Below are positions 8,074 to 18,717 of a stretch of DNA of 64,000 nt, piece by piece; position 1 is the stretch's first letter, and every line of letters begins with the position of its first letter. The DNA comes from Akkermansia muciniphila. Lineage in GTDB: Bacteria; Verrucomicrobiota; Verrucomicrobiia; Verrucomicrobiales; Akkermansiaceae. Below the pieces are notes generated by a model. That model did no database searches. It saw nothing but the letters and a program-made list of their open reading frames with translations, and had not been told where the DNA came from. The translations under genes and the position numbers were made by a program. The stretch spans positions 1,364,001-1,428,000 of the forward strand of contig NZ_CP156688.1 of NCBI RefSeq assembly GCF_040616545.1, given 5' to 3'.

Positions 8074-9384
8074 ATGATTGGCCCCGGACTCATCTCCTTC
8101 TTCTGTTTTCTGATGACGGCCGCGCATTTTTTACGCGGCGGCGCGGATACGGGGGCCATTTTGTGCCTGGCGCTGGCGGTCCTGTCTTTTTCCGGGCGCG
8201 GCTGGCTCCGCAGGAGCGTAACATTCCTTCTGCTGGCCTCACTGGTTCTTTGGGGAGTGGAATTGGTCCATCTGGTGAGGCTGCGGATAGTGGCGGGGCT
8301 GCCGTTCGCGCGCCTGGGCGCCATTCTCCTGGGCGTCCTGCTGCTCCATGCCGGAGCCATTCTGTGGCGCAGGCGGGGGGAGAGGAATTTGTCCGCGCCG
8401 GAACTGGCGCGCAGCCGCGTGTTTTCCGCCTCTGTGGCGCTTCTCTTCGCGCTGGATGCGCTGGCTCCTTTCCCCCTTCTGCTGGGAGAGCGCGTGCTGC
8501 CATGGCAGGGCGTCAACGGAGCGGCGATTCTGCTTCTGGCGTGGTGGGGCGGCTATTGCGCGGAGGGCCTCCTGAATCCGCAGGCGTCTCCCCGCAGGCG
8601 GCGGGTGATGTGGACCGTGTTTGCCTCCGTCTTTTTCCTGCAATTCCTGCTGGGCGTCACGGTGGCTTCCTCCCTGCTGATGACGGGCAGGCTCCATCTT
8701 CCCGTGCCGTTCATGATGCTTTCCGGCCCGGTGTACCGGGGAGAGGGGATGTTCATGCTGGCGCTGTTCAGCGTATCCGTGCTTCTGGTTGGAAGCGCCT
8801 GGTGCAGCCACCTGTGCTACTTCGGGGTTTGGGACTGCTTGTCCGCCACCTCTTCCCGCAGGAAGGGGCGCCCGGTGAAGGGCGGCAAAAGTTCCCGTGA
8901 CTGGAGATGGGGTTTCCTGGCCGCGGCAGTGGGGCTCCCGTTCCTCCTGGCCGTTCTGGGCGTGCCGCTGGAATACGCCCTGGCGGCCGCGCTTGCCGCG
9001 GCGCTCGCGGCTCCCTTTGTCTGGAAGAGAAGCTCCGCAAACGGCGTGCGGGAATATTGCAGCAGGTTCTGCCCCATGGGCCTGGCGGCCAGTCTGCTGG
9101 GCAGGTTTTCCCCCTGGCGCATGCGCGTGGGGGAGACGTGCACCGGCTGCATGAAATGCGCCTCCGCCTGCCGTGACCTGGCCATCTCCCGTGAGGGAGG
9201 GGTTTGCCGTATTTCCCGCCGCTGCACCCTGTGCCGGGACTGCATTTCCCGGTGTTCCCATGGCGCGCTTGGCCTCGGCATGGCCGGCCCCTTTTCCTCC
9301 GTTCCGTCCGCGCGGGCGGACCTGTACTTTATAACGCTGATTTCCGTCATGCACGTGGTGTTTCTGGCCACGGCGAGAGTCTGA
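8074..9384 (+). CDS. Membrane polyferredoxin-like protein (NapH/CcoG-type 4Fe-4S)
   Basis: 436 residues. Many hydrophobic segments occupy about residues 1-320. The WCSHLCYFGVWD motif near 245 resembles the membrane-embedded Cys motif of NapH/NosR/CcoG proteins, and YCSRFCPMG lies near 327. The C-terminal part has two ferredoxin-type clusters: CTGCMKCASAC (Cys356, 359, 362, 366) and CTLCRDCISRC (Cys384, 387, 390, 394), each with a bacterial 2[4Fe-4S] spacing. A last hydrophobic segment ends the protein. Known members pass electrons from quinol or other carriers to a soluble reductase. The sulfite-reductase gene starts 17 bp downstream, so this is its likely electron donor (inference). Confidence 0.8.
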   Translation: MIGPGLISFFCFLMTAAHFLRGGADTGAILCLALAVLSFSGRGWLRRSVTFLLLASLVLWGVELVHLVRLRIVAGLPFARLGAILLGVLLLHAGAILWRRRGERNLSAPELARSRVFSASVALLFALDALAPFPLLLGERVLPWQGVNGAAILLLAWWGGYCAEGLLNPQASPRRRRVMWTVFASVFFLQFLLGVTVASSLLMTGRLHLPVPFMMLSGPVYRGEGMFMLALFSVSVLLVGSAWCSHLCYFGVWDCLSATSSRRKGRPVKGGKSSRDWRWGFLAAAVGLPFLLAVLGVPLEYALAAALAAALAAPFVWKRSSANGVREYCSRFCPMGLAASLLGRFSPWRMRVGETCTGCMKCASACRDLAISREGGVCRISRRCTLCRDCISRCSHGALGLGMAGPFSSVPSARADLYFITLISVMHVVFLATARV

Positions 9385-9401
9385 CATCATTCAATCCGAT
9401 C

Positions 9402-10865
9402 ATGAGAGATACCTATACCCTGGAATACCCTTTTTGCGGAGGCTGGATGGAGCCCGCCCAGTGGCACGCCATTCTGGAGGCCGTGGACGGCGGATGCCGC
9501 CTTGTTTCCTTCTCCACCCTGTCCATTCCCCTGGACGGAGAGGATGAGCGCGAATGCGTGCGGAAGGGCATGGCCCTGGCGGAGAAGCTTTCCCGCCTGG
9601 TCCCGTATGCGGAACAGGCCGTGGATGTGGGTTCTTCCCTTTGCTGGGGGGAAAACCGGGACGCATGGCTGCAATTTGCCGGAAAACTGAACCGGTTTTC
9701 CTCCCCCGTTTCCTTCCCTGCATATGAAATACGCAGGAACCGCGAATGCCTCTTTTCCTCGGATCCCAGGCCGGAAGAACGCTTCTCCGCCCTGCACAAG
9801 CGCGTCAGGATTTGCCTGGAAGAAGCTCCGCACCATGAATTCGGCCTGTTCTCCTGTGACCTGGGTTTTGCGGTACCCAAAGGCGGCCATCCGGAAGGCG
9901 GCGTGCATTTGTTTGCCGGAGGCGGGGGCGGCATCCCCGCCGGCAGTCCGGCCCTGGCCCCGCGGGCCGCGTCCTGGCTGGGGCGGTATTCCCTGCCGGA
10001 AGCCCTGAAAGCGGCGGCGGTACTGACGGCCTTGAATGAACGGTTCGGGGAAACGGAGAACCCGCGCAAAAGGCGATTGAAGTCATTGTTCGCCACGCGT
10101 GGCCTGGACTGGGTGCGGAACGAATTGAAAAACGCCGGATTGTATCCGGGAGAAGGGGAGGAGCCGGAGTTTTCCTCATCCGGGGAATGGAGCCGCAATG
10201 ACTTTTACAACGGGCTGCTGGTGGCGCTCCCTTCCGGAAGCCTGGAGGATACGCCGGAATATGCGGTGGCGGCGGCGTTCCGGCGCGTGGCTCCCTTTCT
10301 GACGGCTCCGGTGCGCATCACGCCGCGCGGCAATCTCCGGCTTCATCCGGCGGACAGGTGCGTGGCGGAACGCATCAAGGCGCTGCTGCGCGGGTCCAGG
10401 CGCTTTTCTCCGCTCTCCATAGAGTCCTGTTCCTGCCGCGGCCTGCCCGGCTGCCGCCGCGCCCGTGCCGCTTCCTCCCTGATTCATCAGGAGCTCAACG
10501 GCTGGCTGGAGGAAATCCTGCGTGAATTCGGGCTTGATGACGAACCCGTGGTGTTCCGTATTTCCGGCTGTCCCAACGGCTGTTCCCGCCCCCTGTTTGC
10601 GGAGCTGGCCCTGGTGGGCCGCAGCGAGGGCGTTTACGACGTGTTTGCCGGAGGACGCGCCCAGGGTGACAGGACGGCGTTCCTGCTGCGCCGGGCCGTT
10701 CCCATCGGGAAGGTGCGGGAGCTGTTCCGGGAGATTTTCCGCCAGTTTGCCCTTGCCAAAAGGGAGAATGCGTGGACGTTCGGGGAATGGGCCTTTGACC
10801 GTCTTCAGGCCGGGGAGGTGGGGCCGAGCTGCGCCCACCGTCCGGGAATTCCGCCGCAGGCGTGA
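9402..10865 (+). CDS. Siroheme sulfite reductase-type hemoprotein
   Basis: 487 residues. The four cluster/siroheme ligands are intact: Cys345 and Cys351 (SCRGLPGC) and Cys390 and Cys394 (SGCPNGC). The spacing of 6, 39 and 4 equals that of E. coli CysI. The parts before them match the duplicated nitrite/sulfite reductase fold: ENPRKRRLKSLF with a downstream GLDWVRNELK, and VRITPRGNLRLHP. Reduces sulfite to sulfide, by family. The N-terminus is shorter than CysI, and no CysJ-like flavoprotein is nearby. The frame is open upstream to 9204 but that part overlaps the preceding gene, so the ATG at 9402 is chosen. It probably works with the membrane Fe-S protein encoded upstream. Nitrite as substrate is possible but less likely. 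Confidence 0.85.
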   Translation: MRDTYTLEYPFCGGWMEPAQWHAILEAVDGGCRLVSFSTLSIPLDGEDERECVRKGMALAEKLSRLVPYAEQAVDVGSSLCWGENRDAWLQFAGKLNRFSSPVSFPAYEIRRNRECLFSSDPRPEERFSALHKRVRICLEEAPHHEFGLFSCDLGFAVPKGGHPEGGVHLFAGGGGGIPAGSPALAPRAASWLGRYSLPEALKAAAVLTALNERFGETENPRKRRLKSLFATRGLDWVRNELKNAGLYPGEGEEPEFSSSGEWSRNDFYNGLLVALPSGSLEDTPEYAVAAAFRRVAPFLTAPVRITPRGNLRLHPADRCVAERIKALLRGSRRFSPLSIESCSCRGLPGCRRARAASSLIHQELNGWLEEILREFGLDDEPVVFRISGCPNGCSRPLFAELALVGRSEGVYDVFAGGRAQGDRTAFLLRRAVPIGKVRELFREIFRQFALAKRENAWTFGEWAFDRLQAGEVGPSCAHRPGIPPQA

Positions 10866-11221: not shown

Positions 11222-11324
11222 TGAATTAGGTTTTCTCCCGCCGGATATGGGAGAAATTCAGGGCCATTCGGAAGAGAGGAATTTGGTTTCAGAAGGTCAT
11301 TTCTGCTGTTCATTGATGAATTTA

Positions 11325-11351
11325 TTGAGCATTTATAGTTTTTGTTATGAT
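11325..11351 (+). promoter_or_regulatory. Candidate promoter for the LytTR gene, giving an almost leaderless mRNA
   Basis: TTGAGC at 11325-11330 and TATGAT at 11346-11351, 15 bp apart. The ATG lies at 11358, only six bases beyond the -10 box, so a transcript from this promoter would start at or next to the start codon. Confidence 0.35.
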
Positions 11352-11357
11352 TTTTGA

Positions 11358-11843
11358 ATGACCGTTAAATTTATTAAAGTCACTAAAAAAGATAGGGTCT
11401 GCTACGCTCCGGTCCCGGAGCCGGTAGAACAGGGGGACAAGCTGGAAATCATGGAAATGAAGGAGGGGGCTTTCTCCCCGCCGGCGGGCAGGGCGGCTGC
11501 GGTTTCCCTGTCCAGGAACCCCATGGTGTTCGTTAAAATGAATGACGGATTCCAGCGCATCCTGATGAAGCACATCCTGTATGTGGAGGCCGCAGGAAGC
11601 TACTGCACGCTGCACGTGCACGGCATGTCGTCCATTCTGGTATCCGCGCCGCTGGCTCGGGTGGCGGAACACCTGGACGGGGAATATTTCATCCGTGTGC
11701 ATCGTTCCTACCTGGTTAACAAGTTGCATATAGAGTCCATTGCGGGTAATTTCCTTCAGGTAGGGAATGTCTCCATCCCCGTCAGCAAGTTCATGAAAAA
11801 GAAAGTGCTGGGAAGCCTGAACATGCTATCGTTTTCCAAATAG
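11358..11843 (+). CDS. LytTR-domain DNA-binding regulator
   Basis: 161 residues. The C-terminal about 100 residues are a LytTR DNA-binding domain: HILYVEAAGSYCTLHVHG, then FIRVHRSYLVNKLHIESI and the final beta hairpin. There is no response-regulator receiver domain; the N-terminal 55 residues are short, charged and proline-containing, so activation by a histidine kinase is unlikely unless indirect. It lies 147 bp upstream of, and in the same direction as, the DUF2589 cassette and is the obvious candidate regulator of it (inference from position). Confidence 0.88.
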   Translation: MTVKFIKVTKKDRVCYAPVPEPVEQGDKLEIMEMKEGAFSPPAGRAAAVSLSRNPMVFVKMNDGFQRILMKHILYVEAAGSYCTLHVHGMSSILVSAPLARVAEHLDGEYFIRVHRSYLVNKLHIESIAGNFLQVGNVSIPVSKFMKKKVLGSLNMLSFSK

Positions 11844-11865
11844 CCGCCAGCCATGCCCCGCCGGC

Positions 11866-11899
11866 GCTCCGGGAAGGCGGAACGGGCCTTCCGGACAGG
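11866..11899 (+). other. Stem-loop between LytTR gene and DUF2589 cassette
   Basis: TCCGGGAAGGC pairs with GCCTTCCGGA around GGAACGG. No T-run follows, so it may be a weak terminator, attenuator or a regulator-binding inverted repeat. Confidence 0.4.
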
Positions 11900-11990
11900 C
11901 GGGGTGGAAAAGGCGCCGGAATGGAATGATCATGACAACGTCGCCGGAAGGCGGCACATCATATTAACCTCAACCAGAAAATAAAATAAT

Positions 11991-12830
11991 ATGGCAATTG
12001 ATAAATCAGCAGCCGACGTGGCGACTTCCTCCCTGCAGTCGCTTCCTTTCGGCAACATCATCGGCGGTCCCCTGGTCGCCTGTGTGGAAGCCCAGGCCCA
12101 GGCGGCCCGGACCTCCTGGGAGTTCATCCAGAATGTGGGCCTGTACACGGAGGGAGAAGAGAAGAAGACGGTGAACGTCTCCTTCCAGTTCATCAAGGAC
12201 GGGCACATGGCCCAGATTACGGTCCCCCTTCTGACCATCGTCCCCATTCCCTACATCGCCATCAACTCCATTGACATCAACTTCAAGGCGAACATCAGCG
12301 CTTCCGCCGCCAGTACGGAAACGGAGAATTCCTCCAGCTCCGCCGATGTCAAGACATCTGCCTCTGCAAGATGCTTCTGGGCGCGCGGCAGCATGAACGC
12401 CAGTTATTCCAGCAAGAAGGACTCCTCCGCCACGAAGGACTCCAAGTACAGCGTGGAATACACGATGGACGTGGCCGTCCATGCCGGGCAGGACAGCATG
12501 CCCGCCGGGATGGCCAAGGTGCTGGAAATGCTGAACAACAGCATTTCCGTAGTATCTCCGGAAGGTTCCCTGGAAGTGCAGCATGCCATCCAGGATGACG
12601 GAACCGTGAAACTGATGACCTCCTACAAGAACAAGGAAGGCCTGTTTGATCCGGACGCCATCACCCTCCGGATAGGGGAGGCCACGGACCCGTTTGATAA
12701 CGGTGCGGGGAATGAAGCCAAGATTGTGAAAACGGATTCCGGCAAGGAATACACGATTTCCAAGGAGGACGCCAGGAACTGCACGGTGAACGCCGGAGAA
12801 CTCAAAAGGAAGGTGGCTGTAGGCGCCTGA
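11991..12830 (+). CDS. DUF2589 family protein, long paralogue
   Basis: 279 residues, function unknown. Family hallmarks, in order: FGNIIGGPLVACVEAQAQAA (about 20-40), SFQFIKDGHMAQITVPLLTI with VPIPYIAINSIDINFKANI (about 65-105), a serine-rich middle (STETENSSSSADVKTSAS), then YSVEYTMDVAVHAGQDSMPAGMAKVLEMLNNSI (about 150-182). DUF2589 ends there; the remaining about 95 residues are an extra C-terminal domain not usual for the family. No signal peptide or membrane segment, so probably cytoplasmic. First gene of the cassette; the next gene starts 38 bp later. Confidence 0.85.
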   Translation: MAIDKSAADVATSSLQSLPFGNIIGGPLVACVEAQAQAARTSWEFIQNVGLYTEGEEKKTVNVSFQFIKDGHMAQITVPLLTIVPIPYIAINSIDINFKANISASAASTETENSSSSADVKTSASARCFWARGSMNASYSSKKDSSATKDSKYSVEYTMDVAVHAGQDSMPAGMAKVLEMLNNSISVVSPEGSLEVQHAIQDDGTVKLMTSYKNKEGLFDPDAITLRIGEATDPFDNGAGNEAKIVKTDSGKEYTISKEDARNCTVNAGELKRKVAVGA

Positions 12831-12868
12831 TAACCGGACCATAACGATTTCTCCTCCATCCCAGAGCC

Positions 12869-13675
12869 ATGTCTCGTCTGAATCTGATTGTCGAATCCCT
12901 GCTGAGGGACATTATTGAAGCGCAGCATGCGGCGAACTGCCATGCGGCGGGGCTGGCGCGCCAGTACGGGAAGCACGGCGGTGTGCGTGGCTTCCAGCTT
13001 CCCAGCGCCCAGATAGGGTCCCTGGAATTCGATCTGAAGTATGCGGTGACGGGAACCTCCGGGGTGGAGGAGAAGCAGGTGCTGGATGCGGAGCAGTGCA
13101 GCCTGTTCCAGCAGGAACTGGCGGAGCGCGTGCCTGCGTACGCCATCCGTTCCATTGTGATGGCCGTGGTGCACTCCAATCTCCCGGCGGATGAGGCAAG
13201 AAGTGACTTTTCCTCCCTGCTTGCCAGGGAGGAACAGTGGAAAAGGAATTTCTGCCTCTACCTGGGAAAGAAGTTCACTGCGGCCATTTCAGGCCATGAG
13301 GGGGCCCTCCTGCGGGCGGACTCCGGATTGGACAAGGGATTGCTGGCGGAACTTCTGGCGGATGTGGCGGAGAAGGAATTCATGGACAATCCCGATCTGG
13401 CGGACCTGTTCCAGGGAGCGCAGGGCGACGCCCTCAGGCAGGAGTGCCGCAAGAACCTCCAGGAGGGCCTCTCCTCCTTCATTGACGTGCTTGCGGAAAA
13501 GTATGCGTTCACCCGGCAGGTAAGCAATGTGGTGGTGGACGTGGAGGTGGAGACGGAAAAGCTGAAAAAGATGCCGGAGAACTCCATCCAGACGCTGCAC
13601 CTCAACATCGCGCCCGCCGCCGTTCCCGCCGTCCTGGCGGAGCAGAATGACGTCTCCGGACTGGCCGCGCAATAG
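12869..13675 (+). CDS. DUF2589-associated protein of unknown function
   Basis: 268 residues, soluble and mostly helical. The N-terminal part (EAQHAANCHAAGLARQYG, then FQLPSAQIGSLEFDLKYAV) resembles the start of proteins that accompany DUF2589 genes: a helix rich in Ala/His followed by a beta-strand segment. The middle is helical (LLADVAEKEFMDNPDLADLF), and the C-terminal beta portion (VSNVVVDVEVETEKLKKM) ends in an alanine/proline tail. No catalytic motif is seen. It lies between the two DUF2589 genes, so the three proteins probably form one assembly (inference). Confidence 0.75.
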   Translation: MSRLNLIVESLLRDIIEAQHAANCHAAGLARQYGKHGGVRGFQLPSAQIGSLEFDLKYAVTGTSGVEEKQVLDAEQCSLFQQELAERVPAYAIRSIVMAVVHSNLPADEARSDFSSLLAREEQWKRNFCLYLGKKFTAAISGHEGALLRADSGLDKGLLAELLADVAEKEFMDNPDLADLFQGAQGDALRQECRKNLQEGLSSFIDVLAEKYAFTRQVSNVVVDVEVETEKLKKMPENSIQTLHLNIAPAAVPAVLAEQNDVSGLAAQ

Positions 13676-13686
13676 TGATATTTATT

Positions 13687-14280
13687 ATGAGTGATTCTAC
13701 AAACAACAAGGTGAACGGGCACATCATGAGCCTGCAGCAGTTGATTTCGGCCCCGCTGGTCGCGACGATTGATGCGGACGCGATGTCCACGGAACGCTAC
13801 ATGAAGCATTTCATGTCCCTGGCTTTTGAGTCCTACAATCCCGCGGACGGTTCCACGGGGGCGTTAAGGCTCATCAGCTTTAATTTTACGGACAGCGACG
13901 CTTCCGGCGGCGCGGAGAAGAAAGTCAGCGTGCCGCTCATCAGCCTGGTGACGCTGCCTCTGCTGCAAATCAAGCAGGCGGACTTTGACTTTGACATCAA
14001 CATCATTGACGCGGTCGCCTCCGCTCCGGATGAACGCTTTTCCCTGAACAAGGGTGAGGTGGATTCCTCCGCTGGGAAGGGGCAGGGTGACGGCCTGAAC
14101 TTCCGGGCTTCCCTGGCGCCCCAGTCGGGCAGGGGGGCCGCCTCTTCCTCCCTGCAGGCGAACATGAAAATCCATGTAGCCATGCAGCAGGCGGACATGC
14201 CTTCCGGCCTGTCCCAATTCCTCCAGCTGACCTCCAGGCCGCATTATGAAGACTCTCCCTCCCAGGAGAAAAATAACTAA
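13687..14280 (+). CDS. DUF2589 family protein, short paralogue
   Basis: 197 residues. The DUF2589 pattern is clear: MSLQQLISAPLVATIDADAM near the N-terminus, KKVSVPLISLVTLPLLQIKQADFDFDINI in the middle, and SSSLQANMKIHVAMQQADMPSGLSQFLQLTS at the end. It lacks the extra C-terminal domain of the long paralogue. An in-frame GTG at 13675 overlaps the previous stop codon; the ATG at 13687 is preferred because the family homology starts just after it. No signal peptide. Confidence 0.85.
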   Translation: MSDSTNNKVNGHIMSLQQLISAPLVATIDADAMSTERYMKHFMSLAFESYNPADGSTGALRLISFNFTDSDASGGAEKKVSVPLISLVTLPLLQIKQADFDFDINIIDAVASAPDERFSLNKGEVDSSAGKGQGDGLNFRASLAPQSGRGAASSSLQANMKIHVAMQQADMPSGLSQFLQLTSRPHYEDSPSQEKNN

Positions 14281-14294
14281 TTGAAAGAAAAAAC

Positions 14295-14525
14295 ATGGAC
14301 CAGAAAACCACTTATTCCTACCAGCGCACTCCGGGGCTTGACTGCCCCAAATGCGGTGTGTATTTCCCCACAACCATTCCGGACCTGTTGTCCGGCGGCA
14401 TTGAATGCCCCCACTGCGGGCTGAAGCTTTCCATTGACCGGAAGTCTTCCGACCACGCCATGCAGGCCCTGGAAAAGTTCCAGGCTACCCTTGACAAACA
14501 GCTTCCTGCCGCCTCCCTGTCATGA
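14295..14525 (+). CDS. Small zinc-ribbon protein
   Basis: 76 residues. Two CxxC knuckles, CPKC (about residues 17-20) and CPHC (about 38-41), are set 17 residues apart, the geometry of a rubredoxin-like zinc ribbon. A C-terminal helix of about 30 residues follows. It overlaps the next gene by four bases (ATGA) and follows the short DUF2589 gene by 14 bp, so it belongs to the same operon. Role unknown; possibly a structural or nucleic-acid/protein-binding adaptor. Confidence 0.8.
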   Translation: MDQKTTYSYQRTPGLDCPKCGVYFPTTIPDLLSGGIECPHCGLKLSIDRKSSDHAMQALEKFQATLDKQLPAASLS

Positions 14526-14875
14526 AGAGACTGCTGATGATGCTGTCCGCCATGCTCTGCATGGCTCTGCCCCCCCTTTCCCAGGCGGAAATGCAGCAGC
14601 GGGAGCCGGGCCAGCTGGCCGCCGCCTGGCAGGACGTGAAGAAGCAAATTTCAGGCGACGGCCAGACCATCCGTGTGAGGGACGGAGCCAAGGCGCTTGA
14701 CCTGCTGGGCGAACTGGGCGTTGTCTCCGTTCCGGAGGATGGCGTGAAGCTGTCCCGCGGCACCCTGACCATTATCGTCACGCGCGGAAAGAAGGAGGAC
14801 GGGGTATTTTATGTGCTGACCGTCACGGAAGAGGATGGGACAAGGCGGGAAGTGAGGCTCGTTCCCTCCTCCTGA
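14522..14875 (+). CDS. Small exported protein at the end of the DUF2589 cassette
   Basis: 117 residues. Signal peptide MKRLLMMLSAMLCMALPPLSQA, cleaved before EMQQ. The mature part has one helix (LAAAWQDVKKQI) and several strands (GTLTIIVTRGKKEDGVFYVLTVTEEDG). Start overlaps the stop of the zinc-ribbon gene. It is the only exported member of an otherwise cytoplasmic cassette. No recognisable domain. Confidence 0.75.
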   Translation: MKRLLMMLSAMLCMALPPLSQAEMQQREPGQLAAAWQDVKKQISGDGQTIRVRDGAKALDLLGELGVVSVPEDGVKLSRGTLTIIVTRGKKEDGVFYVLTVTEEDGTRREVRLVPSS

Positions 14876-14911
14876 TTCCCCGGAAAAGATGCGTCCCTTC
14901 CGGAGGGAAGG

Positions 14912-16744: not shown

Positions 16745-17305
16745 CTATTGAGGAATAACTCCTTTAGGAGATCGGCTTACTGGTTCAAAATCTTTTCTGC
16801 CCACATACTTTCTCCAGATCCCCGGCTCTCCATATCCATCCCGGAAGCGTACTTCCAACTCGTACTTCTTTCCGTTGAAAAGACGTGGAAAAGGGCCAAG
16901 ATAGACTAACAATGAATACGCATCCTTGATGAGCACTTCATGTTTTTCTCTCGGTTGTAACGTAATGAAGTGCAAGGAGTTAGCTCTTCGTTCAATTTGA
17001 TACCCGGCTCCATACCAAGCTGTGGGCTTGTCCATTTTCTTCCCGTTTCCCGTTTTTAAAAAAATCTTTATGAAAATATTCGGGCCATAATCCTTGAGGG
17101 GATAGAAGTCATCAAAAAGGCGCACGGTCTTTTCACCCTTGTTCGTAAACACCAGCTTGAAGTCCGGGAAAGTCTCTCTTGCGTCAAACTCGGTCTTTTC
17201 CATCACCACGGAACATTCGATCCCGTTGTCGGCCATGTCCCCCCATGCCGCAGCATGGAGGGACAGGCACCCCAAAATTCCTAAATACCGGAAGATTTTT
17301 TTCAT
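16745..17305 (-). CDS. Secreted protein, tandem paralogue A
   Basis: 186 residues; signal peptide MKKIFRYLGILGCLSLHAAAWG. The mature protein starts with the block shared by all three neighbours (ADNGIECSVVMEKTEFDAR, then FPDFKLVFTNKGEKTVRLFDD), reads like a small all-beta domain (HEVLIKDAYSLLVYL, then YELEVRFRDGYGEPGI) and ends SRSPKGVIPQ. An upstream ATG overlapping the paralogue B stop would add 13 residues before the signal peptide, so the later Met is chosen. Last gene of a low-GC operon. Function unknown; secreted immunity-type or inhibitor proteins are one possibility. Confidence 0.78.
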   Translation of the reverse strand: MKKIFRYLGILGCLSLHAAAWGDMADNGIECSVVMEKTEFDARETFPDFKLVFTNKGEKTVRLFDDFYPLKDYGPNIFIKIFLKTGNGKKMDKPTAWYGAGYQIERRANSLHFITLQPREKHEVLIKDAYSLLVYLGPFPRLFNGKKYELEVRFRDGYGEPGIWRKYVGRKDFEPVSRSPKGVIPQ

Positions 17306-17337
17306 CATAGCGCGAGTTTGGCCGTTGCCCGGAGATT

Positions 17338-17928
17338 TTACCATCTACGGACCCCTTCAGGAGATTGATTTGACGTTTTAAATTCCTGTCTGCCTACGTA
17401 TTCTCTCCGAACGCCGGGTTCTGCATATCCATCCTTGAACCTGACTTCAAGCTCGTACCACTCTCCATTGCGAAGATGCTCGAAATATACCAGCAACAAG
17501 TAAGCGTCCTTGATGGACACTTCATGTTTTTCTCCGGGTTTCAGAGTAATGAAGCGCATCAAGGCCCCTACCCGTTCAAACATATACATGGGTCCATACC
17601 AAGCTATAGGGGTTTCTCTTTCTAATCTGACTACTCCAAGTCTCTTCCCATTTTCCTTTCTCCATATTTCTATATGAATATTCGGCGCTTTTTCTCTTCT
17701 GGGTTCACGAAGACGCACAATAGGATAAACGTCGTCAAAAAGACGTACGGTTTTTTCGCCCTTGTTGGCGAACACCAGCTTGAAGTCCGGGAAGGTTTCC
17801 CTGGCATCAAAACTGGTCTTTTCCATCACTACGGAACATTCAATTCCGTTGTCCGCCTGGTCGCCCAGGGCGCTGCTAGAAAGGGACAGGCCAACCAGCA
17901 GATTGGCGAAGAGACAGGTCTTGTTCAT
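17338..17928 (-). CDS. Secreted protein, tandem paralogue B
   Basis: 196 residues. The signal peptide differs from A and C (MNKTCLFANLLVGLSLSSSALG), but the mature protein is clearly the same: DNGIECSVVMEKTSFDAR, FPDFKLVFANKGEKTVRLFDD, PGEKHEVSIKDAYLLLVYFE and a C-terminus NQSPEGVRRW. The large difference in signal peptide next to near-identical mature blocks suggests recombination or gene conversion among the copies. GC content is clearly below that of the flanking regions. Confidence 0.8.
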   Translation of the reverse strand: MNKTCLFANLLVGLSLSSSALGDQADNGIECSVVMEKTSFDARETFPDFKLVFANKGEKTVRLFDDVYPIVRLREPRREKAPNIHIEIWRKENGKRLGVVRLERETPIAWYGPMYMFERVGALMRFITLKPGEKHEVSIKDAYLLLVYFEHLRNGEWYELEVRFKDGYAEPGVRREYVGRQEFKTSNQSPEGVRRW

Positions 17929-18007
17929 GAGTTAGGGGAAATGGTCAGTTTTCTTCACCGTTGATCGGAGGAAAGAAGCAGGGAAGGTTGGCATAGGATT
18001 CCATAAT

Positions 18008-18598
18008 TTACCATCTAGGAGCTCCTTCAGGAGATCGACTTGACGTGTTAAATTCCTGCCTGCCCACGTATTCTCTACGGATTCCCGGTTCACTATATCC
18101 ATCCTTAAAGCGTACTTCCAGCTCATACCTATTATTGTTGCGAAGATACTCGAAATAAGTCAGCAATAGATAGGCATTCTTGATAGGCACTTCATGCTTT
18201 TCTCCGGGCTTAAGCGTAATGAAGCGCATCATGTCCTCACGCCATGCTTTCATAGGCCCGGTTTCATACCAGGCTAAAGGCATTTTTTTTCCGAGTATTA
18301 CTTTCCCGAATCTCTTTCCAGTTCCCTTTCCCCATATTTCTATACGAATTTCCGGCGCTTCTGCCTTCCTGGGTTTACGAAGGCCCACAACAGGATAAAT
18401 ATTATCCAAAAGGCGCACGGTCTTTTCGCCCTTGTTCGTGAATACCAGCTTGAAGTCCGGGAAGGCTTCCCTAGCATCAAAACTGGTCTTTTCCATCACC
18501 ACGGAGCATTCTACCCCGTTGTCGGCCATATCCCCCCATACCGCCGCATGGAAGGTCAGGATTGCCAGACATCCTAAAAACTGAAAGATTCTTTTCAT
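18008..18598 (-). CDS. Secreted protein, tandem paralogue C
   Basis: 196 residues, signal peptide MKRIFQFLGCLAILTFHAAVWG. The mature blocks match A and B (DNGVECSVVMEKTSFDAR, FPDFKLVFTNKGEKTVRLLD, PGEKHEVPIKNAYLLLTYFE, SRSPEGAPRW). The open frame extends 26 codons upstream, but that part is not signal-like, so the Met at 18598 is used. First of the three copies in transcription order, 119 bp after the interrupted gene. Function unknown. Confidence 0.8.
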   Translation of the reverse strand: MKRIFQFLGCLAILTFHAAVWGDMADNGVECSVVMEKTSFDAREAFPDFKLVFTNKGEKTVRLLDNIYPVVGLRKPRKAEAPEIRIEIWGKGTGKRFGKVILGKKMPLAWYETGPMKAWREDMMRFITLKPGEKHEVPIKNAYLLLTYFEYLRNNNRYELEVRFKDGYSEPGIRREYVGRQEFNTSSRSPEGAPRW

Positions 18599-18717
18599 TA
18601 CAGCACAAGTACCTCTCATTCTAGAAACTATAGTAAATTGTTTTATGTTCACAAGAACATTGTACCAATTTTTCAAGTATTCCCTGTTTCAGCGTTCGGG
18701 ACAAGGCTTTGTCGCAT

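Follow-up and report, generated by a model that had tools for sequence, protein, structure and literature searches.

A cassette of six genes on the plus strand of Akkermansia muciniphila, at positions 11358..14875 of the 64,000-nucleotide stretch analyzed here (the window; contig NZ_CP156688.1, positions 1,364,001 to 1,428,000, from a genome assembled as a single contig of 3.06 Mb), carries a version of a gene module built around the domain family DUF2589 (PF11655), and the existence of this module as a conserved and transferable unit is well supported. Its core consists of a DUF2589 protein (D) and a helical partner (H), which are inherited together in archaea as well as bacteria. In most relatives, a protein of a third helical family (C) is also present; in its place, the clade to which the window belongs has a second DUF2589 protein and a zinc ribbon (Z). 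Within the genus, this accessory insertion has a LytTR gene of its own. An initial sequence-only reading had described the cassette as an uncharacterized multi-gene system, a description borne out by the presence of H with DUF2589 in 77 of 80 loci and by Pfam, which gives DUF2589 no described function.

The 80 loci are the best of 186 confirmed DUF2589 relatives, obtained from one scan of named genomes that selected by two DUF2589 motifs; the fetched loci supplied profiles for D, H, and C, with which all open reading frames (ORFs) were searched. Four pairs of near-copies (L056/L057, L060/L061, L088/L089, and L051/L052) were kept among the 80, one member of each being dropped from the neighbour tallies. 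The arrangement is D-H-C in 63 loci, D-H-C-C in one, D-H in seven, D-H-D-Z in three, D-H-D-Z-H in one, D-D-H in one, and D alone in three, and one further locus (L103) is rearranged, its H, D, and C genes being spread over both strands. C is thus found in 65 of the 80, and the D-H-C order is kept on one strand in 64, with gaps from 62-base overlaps to 403 bases. In two of the three loci lacking H, the contig ends within 610 and 174 bases (L041 and L044, respectively); in the other, L090, there is room, and none was seen. Eight loci have H together with neither C nor Z: three of these (L053, L081, and L094) end at or within 50 bases of H, and the remaining five (L068, L070, L076, L083, and L087) constitute one clade. 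The module ranges from Akkermansia and Bacteroides to methanogens and Bathyarchaeota. No Pfam match was found at 0.01 for nine H proteins, and four of five C proteins have no Pfam family above cut-off; the C protein of L056 matches the Sf6 terminase small subunit (29.6 vs 27 bits over 52 residues), a match that the four other C proteins do not share. A common protein of 183 aa (85 aa in L059) follows closely after D-H-C in L062 (10181-10732), L064 (10043-10594), and L059 (2048-2305), and in L062 it contains a HEQDH stretch that resembles, by eye, the HExxH motif of metalloproteases.

This neighbourhood survey rules out that DUF2589 genes lack recurring partners. Of the partners named in the sequence-only reading, H is general, zinc ribbon with second DUF2589 is confined to the D-H-D-Z clade (4 of 80), and LytTR is not general; the common third partner, C, had been missed. 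Searched with a profile made from the window's protein, LytTR was found in the fetched DNA of three of the 80 loci (L049, L070, and L094) and in a further relative, L025, never directly beside DUF2589. These results do not support LytTR as a general partner of the module; because matches outside the genus are few and never directly adjoin DUF2589, it looks like a local regulator. Some of the lineages holding these four matches are rich in LytTR. The exported protein at the end of the cassette is not general either, being restricted among the fetched loci to the genus of the window.

The window's form, D-H-D-Z, occurs among the 80 loci in a Nitrospinota bacterium, two Pelagibius, and a Crocosphaera, and was also found in the window itself, in eight further genomes of the genus, and in a faecal scaffold (L024). 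On a tree of joined D and H sequences (75 rows), a single change accounts for all seven D-H-D-Z rows, on a branch with a Shimodaira-Hasegawa-like approximate likelihood ratio test (SH-aLRT) value of 100. On the D-only tree, where long branches leave the details unsure, the seven D2 rows (D2 being the second DUF2589 protein) need one change among D1 and other D. Four cysteines are kept in all six aligned Z proteins, including that of the window. Archaeal and bacterial rows are intermingled on the joined tree, with 6 changes of domain, which suggests transfer, with the reservation that bins may hold foreign contigs; the module has probably spread widely in this way. Viral origin is not supported, since 114 pattern matches in viral contigs yielded 0 relatives in a scan that sees two motifs only, and the phage records contributed one unverified faecal scaffold among 50,697. 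That scaffold, L024 (MT839761.1), comes from human faeces, is filed as an unverified Bacteriophage sp., and holds D-H-D-Z together with a peptidoglycan-binding muramidase; its phage label may be wrong, because the viral contig scan gave no relative.

In the window, the order of genes proposed in the sequence-only reading is confirmed. The first gene (11358..11843) encodes a LytTR DNA-binding regulator (P0001, 161 aa; PF04397, 53.3 bits, 3.3e-14, Pfam cut-off 22.6) in which Pfam found no receiver domain, so that it does not qualify as a two-component response regulator. The long DUF2589 protein, D1, which has a C-terminal extension (P0002, 279 aa; 11991..12830), and the short one, D2 (P0004, 197 aa; 13687..14280, with an alternative GTG start at 13675 likewise open), exceed the curated cut-off of PF11655 (97.9 and 57.4 bits, respectively, vs 23) and lie on either side of H (P0003, 268 aa; 12869..13675). 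They are followed by Z, a small zinc ribbon with conserved cysteines and a helical tail (P0005, 76 aa; 14295..14525), and by a small exported protein (P0006, 117 aa; 14522..14875) with a hydrophobic N-terminus (19-residue hydropathy mean of 1.58 at residue 4), the start of which falls inside the stop codon region of the Z gene. The LytTR and D1 genes are 147 bp apart, and the five genes downstream of LytTR are indeed tightly spaced (38, 11, 14, and -4 bp). Pfam gave no family above cut-off for H, Z, or the exported protein, with sub-threshold zinc-ribbon matches only for Z, and NCBIfam, PHROGs, and PADLOC gave no above-cut-off name for D1, H, or D2; the LytTR protein obtained a weak LytR match and one unnamed PHROG in these searches. 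At E 0.001, D1 and D2 are the only DUF2589 genes of the source genome, and the LytTR gene is its only one.

The cassette lies between a sulfite-reductase-like gene on the left and, on the right, a QSregVF_b gene of the opposite strand and an alpha/beta hydrolase (Pfam). Among 288 genomes of the phylum, D and H were found in an identical set of 10, to which the window's genome belongs, both searches having covered the same draw of genomes as far as the lists show. Nine of 76 genomes of the genus carry DUF2589, each with an adjoining LytTR gene, and LytTR was found in 10, namely the same nine and G274; genomes of the genus and phylum being related, these counts do not represent independent events. 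All nine cassettes, from the window and eight genomes, share the six-gene order and the right flank, and because nine genomes keep this order and the right-hand genes, the six-gene grouping is more than chance. Two genomes without the cassette (G004 and G247) have the left and right flanks known from cassette genomes approximately 1 kb or less apart, whereas a third (G015) retains part of the right flank only, with no left-flank match of at least 250 bases. The suggestion that the cassette could be an accessory module is thus upheld, both by its presence in nine of 76 genomes and by the two genomes that keep both flanks without it. Between the left core and QSregVF_b, the site appears to vary among genomes, and the adjacent part of the window (8074-10862, encoding a Fer4 protein and the sulfite-reductase-like gene) is matched in only some cassette genomes. 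The LytTR gene of G274 (contig C94, 3239-3439; L124) is a different one, in a genome of the genus that has no DUF2589; it is at best distant, because the window's LytTR protein is unmatched at 1e-4 in the first 12 kb of that contig.

Profile comparison, computed from clean alignments with an H set free of DUF2589 sequences, indicates that D and H are probably ancient paralogues. Positions 3-70 of H align locally to DUF2589 positions 12-105 with a profile score of 32.6 (probability 51%, E 0.00016), compared with control scores of at most 23.4 in 100 column shuffles and 15.3 with the reversed profile. The whole-length comparison is weaker (probability 12%, E 0.00055); the single-sequence searches were one-sided, with 33 D sequences matched by the H profile (E up to 10; best value 0.00016) and no H matched by the D profile. 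As probable paralogues, D and H are expected to assemble together, and their homologous N-terminus makes a hetero-assembly of D1, D2, and H plausible. The predicted model of D1 (78 sequences; mean predicted local distance difference test score, pLDDT, 66.2) has a helix at each terminus as well as long strands, its serine-rich middle being unsure. In that of H (70 sequences; mean pLDDT 82.6), a 31-residue helix and one strand are followed by a helical insert and then by a further four strands. Sequence search found no solved relative of D1. In structural comparison with the PDB, the best VIA Z value of D1 is 4.9, at 5.2 A over 92 residues, and the helical part of H reaches 6.5, at 3.5 A over 114 residues. 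None of the fold candidates retrieved proved usable. Those for D1 are weak throughout and include Tctex-1 light chains, a fungal protein, and, much lower in the ranking, SecB; H drew chiefly globins and helical bundles of a generic kind. One of 85 D proteins has a signal-peptide-like N-terminus, and none of 77 H or 66 C proteins does.

The cassette very probably corresponds to Amuc_1010-1014 of A. muciniphila ATCC BAA-835 and, if so, has been in print since 2018 as an uncharacterized cluster (PMC5945754). By inference, LytTR would be Amuc_1010, D1 Amuc_1011, H Amuc_1012, D2 Amuc_1013, and Z Amuc_1014. The passages of that paper on the cluster report Amuc_1010, a LytTR protein without a receiver, as 5.28-fold up in co-culture with Anaerostipes caccae, with Amuc_1011-1014, annotated as uncharacterized, also up, and they suggest co-transcription and autoregulation; this co-induction fits one operon. 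The published cluster resembles ours in having a receiver-less LytTR followed by one-directional uncharacterized genes and differs in that four genes are listed after the regulator, as opposed to five here; the same passages name neither DUF2589 nor the wider module. In a passage of another paper, Amuc_1011 appears among the proteins predicted for the outer membrane and is reported at a low level in the whole proteome (PMC4960237). In Archaeoglobus fulgidus, the DUF2589-related genes AF0414-AF0417 are described as up together on lactate (PMC3949148). Compared by description, these are likewise adjacent, jointly regulated DUF2589-related genes; they differ in being archaeal, and the passage in question mentions no LytTR. 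Among 5.39 million open papers, a single one was found to match DUF2589 or PF11655.

Upstream of the LytTR gene lies a candidate operator (11295..11328, plus strand), recognized from the sequence as three short direct repeats, GGTCATTT, TTCATTGA, and TTTATTGA, with starts 14 and 12 bases apart, in a block that is mostly conserved in the nine-genome alignment of the genus. The promoter scan found no sigma-70-type site, and the TATGAT at 11346-11351 resembles a -10 box by eye only. The leader of D1 contains a short stem, CGCC-loop-GGCG (11942..11953, plus strand), with the stem kept and the loop variable in the nine genomes. The arrangement recalls the LytTR Regulatory Systems (LRS; PMC6193735), with which it has in common a LytTR transcription regulator; the short direct repeats upstream of the LytTR gene may correspond to those expected just upstream of the promoter in LRS, and the autoregulation suggested for Amuc_1010 (PMC5945754) is a further likeness. 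It differs from LRS in that no transmembrane inhibitor was recognized in the cassette, although such a gene might lie elsewhere in the genome. The highest 19-residue hydropathy is 0.72-1.37 in H, D2, and Z, and 1.74 in D1, at residues 76-94, which are mostly strand and loop in the predicted model. Beyond the cassette, a terminator-like hairpin (14894..14911, both strands) is a weak match, because the scan gave 6 matches in the region vs 4.3 expected in shuffles. Rfam, at gathering scores, found three tRNAs in the window and none near the cassette. Further to the right, three tandem minus-strand genes (16745-18676) encode similar small, exported-looking proteins sharing an ECSVVMEKT stretch.

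A lead on function comes from enzymes with cell walls or proteins as their targets, encoded near some modules in other genomes. Amidase_2 genes lie on the same strand near it in L033, L094, and L098, as do genes for a GH46 enzyme with PG_binding_1 (peptidoglycan-binding) in L072, a caspase in L094, a matrixin/astacin in L095, a FIST protein in L035, and a subtilase in L082, with a similar gene in L084 (Peptidase_S8 having two members among the same-strand neighbours). N-acetylmuramidase is encoded downstream of the module in two loci, at a distance of some genes in L022 and of two ORFs in L024; L105 has a metallo-beta-lactamase with a sub-threshold SH3 match near the module, and neighbours in L096, L100, and L102 look chitinase- or peptidoglycan-binding-like by eye only, with no Pfam match. 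None of 15 candidate enzymes has a signal-peptide-like start, their N-terminal hydropathy being -0.3 to 1.64, whereas four exported controls, chosen by eye, gave 2.39 to 3.22. Across 49 module genomes (about 212 Mb) with 52 Amidase_2 matches listed, at least 3 were recognized within 2 kb of the module, against 0.078 expected (Poisson P 7.5e-5). This is a minimum, since the three were recognized by coordinates or as the only match of a genome and the others were not mapped singly; the assemblies of L094 and L098 each yielded no Amidase_2 other than this neighbour. The enrichment is suggestive only, because the family was picked after it had been seen. Among 132 far control genes (a random sample of 375), no Amidase_2 appears among the 25 families listed, families with a single match being mostly unlisted. 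Two loci deserve description in their own right. In L094 (1469-4677; a Runella bin), a LytTR fragment, Amidase_2, caspase, DUF2589, and H follow in series on one strand. In L022 (5098-9380; plasmid CP026659.1 of Deltaproteobacteria bacterium Smac51), two DUF2589 genes and, further down, the N-acetylmuramidase gene belong to a long series of small hypothetical genes that all point the same way.

We tentatively interpret the cassette as the Akkermansia form of the DUF2589 module, encoding a LytTR-switched cytoplasmic hetero-assembly that handles client proteins, an interpretation that we place slightly short of an even chance. The receiver-less LytTR would activate its own gene along with the operon; D1, D2, and H, which appear to share an N-terminal helix and the following strand, would co-assemble in the cytoplasm, with Z as a possible fitting or closing subunit. 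The assembly would then hold or handle clients, apparently wall hydrolases or proteases without signal peptides in several relatives, whereas the exported protein may be a lineage-specific envelope add-on. A number of observations weigh against this interpretation. Amidase_2 is the commonest family among 132 same-strand neighbours, yet accounts for only 3 of them; most D-H-C loci have no hydrolase beside them, and there is none in the window's own cassette. PG_binding_1 has 107 matches in the 49 genomes, not mapped singly, of which one was recognized beside the module (that of L072, the only one of its genome). In the D1 model, 155 of 279 residues are under pLDDT 70, and Foldseek found no PDB fold match to the D1 or H models at E of at most 0.001. 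A hydropathy window above 1.6 occurs somewhere in 15 of 85 D proteins and, at 1.74, in D1 itself, so that membrane contact is possible. Finally, the identity with Amuc_1010-1014 is inferred from the single LytTR gene and the gene order, not from a locus tag.

Several other explanations have to be weighed against this client-handling assembly. The nearest to it, which we regard as doubtful, is a delivery or release machine, in which D, H, and C would form a particle or tube for wall hydrolases and proteases that have no signal peptide, exporting these enzymes, passing them into neighbouring cells, or freeing them by lysis. The occurrence of Amidase_2, GH46/PG_binding_1, caspase, subtilase, matrixin/astacin, and N-acetylmuramidase near modules in separate lineages would fit such a machine, as would the low N-terminal hydropathy of the candidate enzymes relative to the controls and the enrichment of Amidase_2, including the two assemblies with no other member of this family. 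However, these enzymes accompany a minority of loci and belong to families picked after the fact, and the Akkermansia cassette has none; moreover, the neighbours beyond C form scattered clusters only (for example, ABC-ATPase-like in 15 loci and signalling-type in 13), varying in distance and strand, and no sheath or baseplate was recognized when neighbours were clustered. In its most far-reaching form, which we consider unlikely, the proposal is that D-H-C and D-H-D-Z represent an unrecognized cytoplasmic assembly of bacteria and archaea that stores wall hydrolases and proteases devoid of signal peptides and delivers or releases them, and that the dedicated LytTR of Akkermansia would switch it on when another gut bacterium is present. 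An anti-phage or abortive-infection system, for example a protease-activated pore, is less probable again. The patchy distribution (10 of 288 genomes), interleaved across domains, and the caspase or subtilase adjoining a few relatives would suit it, and 49 PADLOC models have some match among 131 adjacent genes (Cas6, Cas3, Pycsar cyclase, and mads among them), a number for which the background rate was not measured. Yet none of these models is listed with more than two members, five of the six cassette proteins have no PADLOC match at 0.1, the zinc ribbon reaches 17 bits only, and expression follows culture conditions in two organisms, according to the passages cited above. The related reading of the loci as defence islands is not supported, no PADLOC or Pfam family recurring strongly in the adjacent genes.

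The 2016 and 2018 papers point in another direction, namely that Amuc_1011, our D1, is an outer-membrane protein affecting host contact, on the basis of a prediction and of the low amounts detected in the whole proteome (PMC4960237 and PMC5945754, in the passages concerned). We find this highly improbable for D1, the N-terminus of which is not signal-peptide-like, its hydropathy of 1.21 falling short of an export signal to the outer membrane; among the 85 related D proteins, one is over 1.6. In addition, the family occurs with its partners in archaea and Bacillota, most of which have no outer membrane. Barely tenable, lastly, is the view that unrelated genes happen to lie together. The proteins are very different from one another, and the exported one is lineage-specific among the fetched loci; but the conserved order across phyla, the presence of D and H in identical genomes, and the co-induction reported in the published passages all speak for a unit, and for D and H a chance grouping is contradicted.

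Collectively, these results describe a module for which none of the known systems, families, or folds compared can account, its novelty being limited to this sense, and of which one core protein family only has even a placeholder name in Pfam. With the H partner, the subtypes, and a dedicated switch, an orphan domain becomes a defined system open to expression, deletion, and imaging. If the identity with Amuc_1010-1014 is true, the passages on co-culture (PMC5945754) would mean that the Akkermansia module answers to a neighbouring species, and it may thus bear on how gut bacteria meet.

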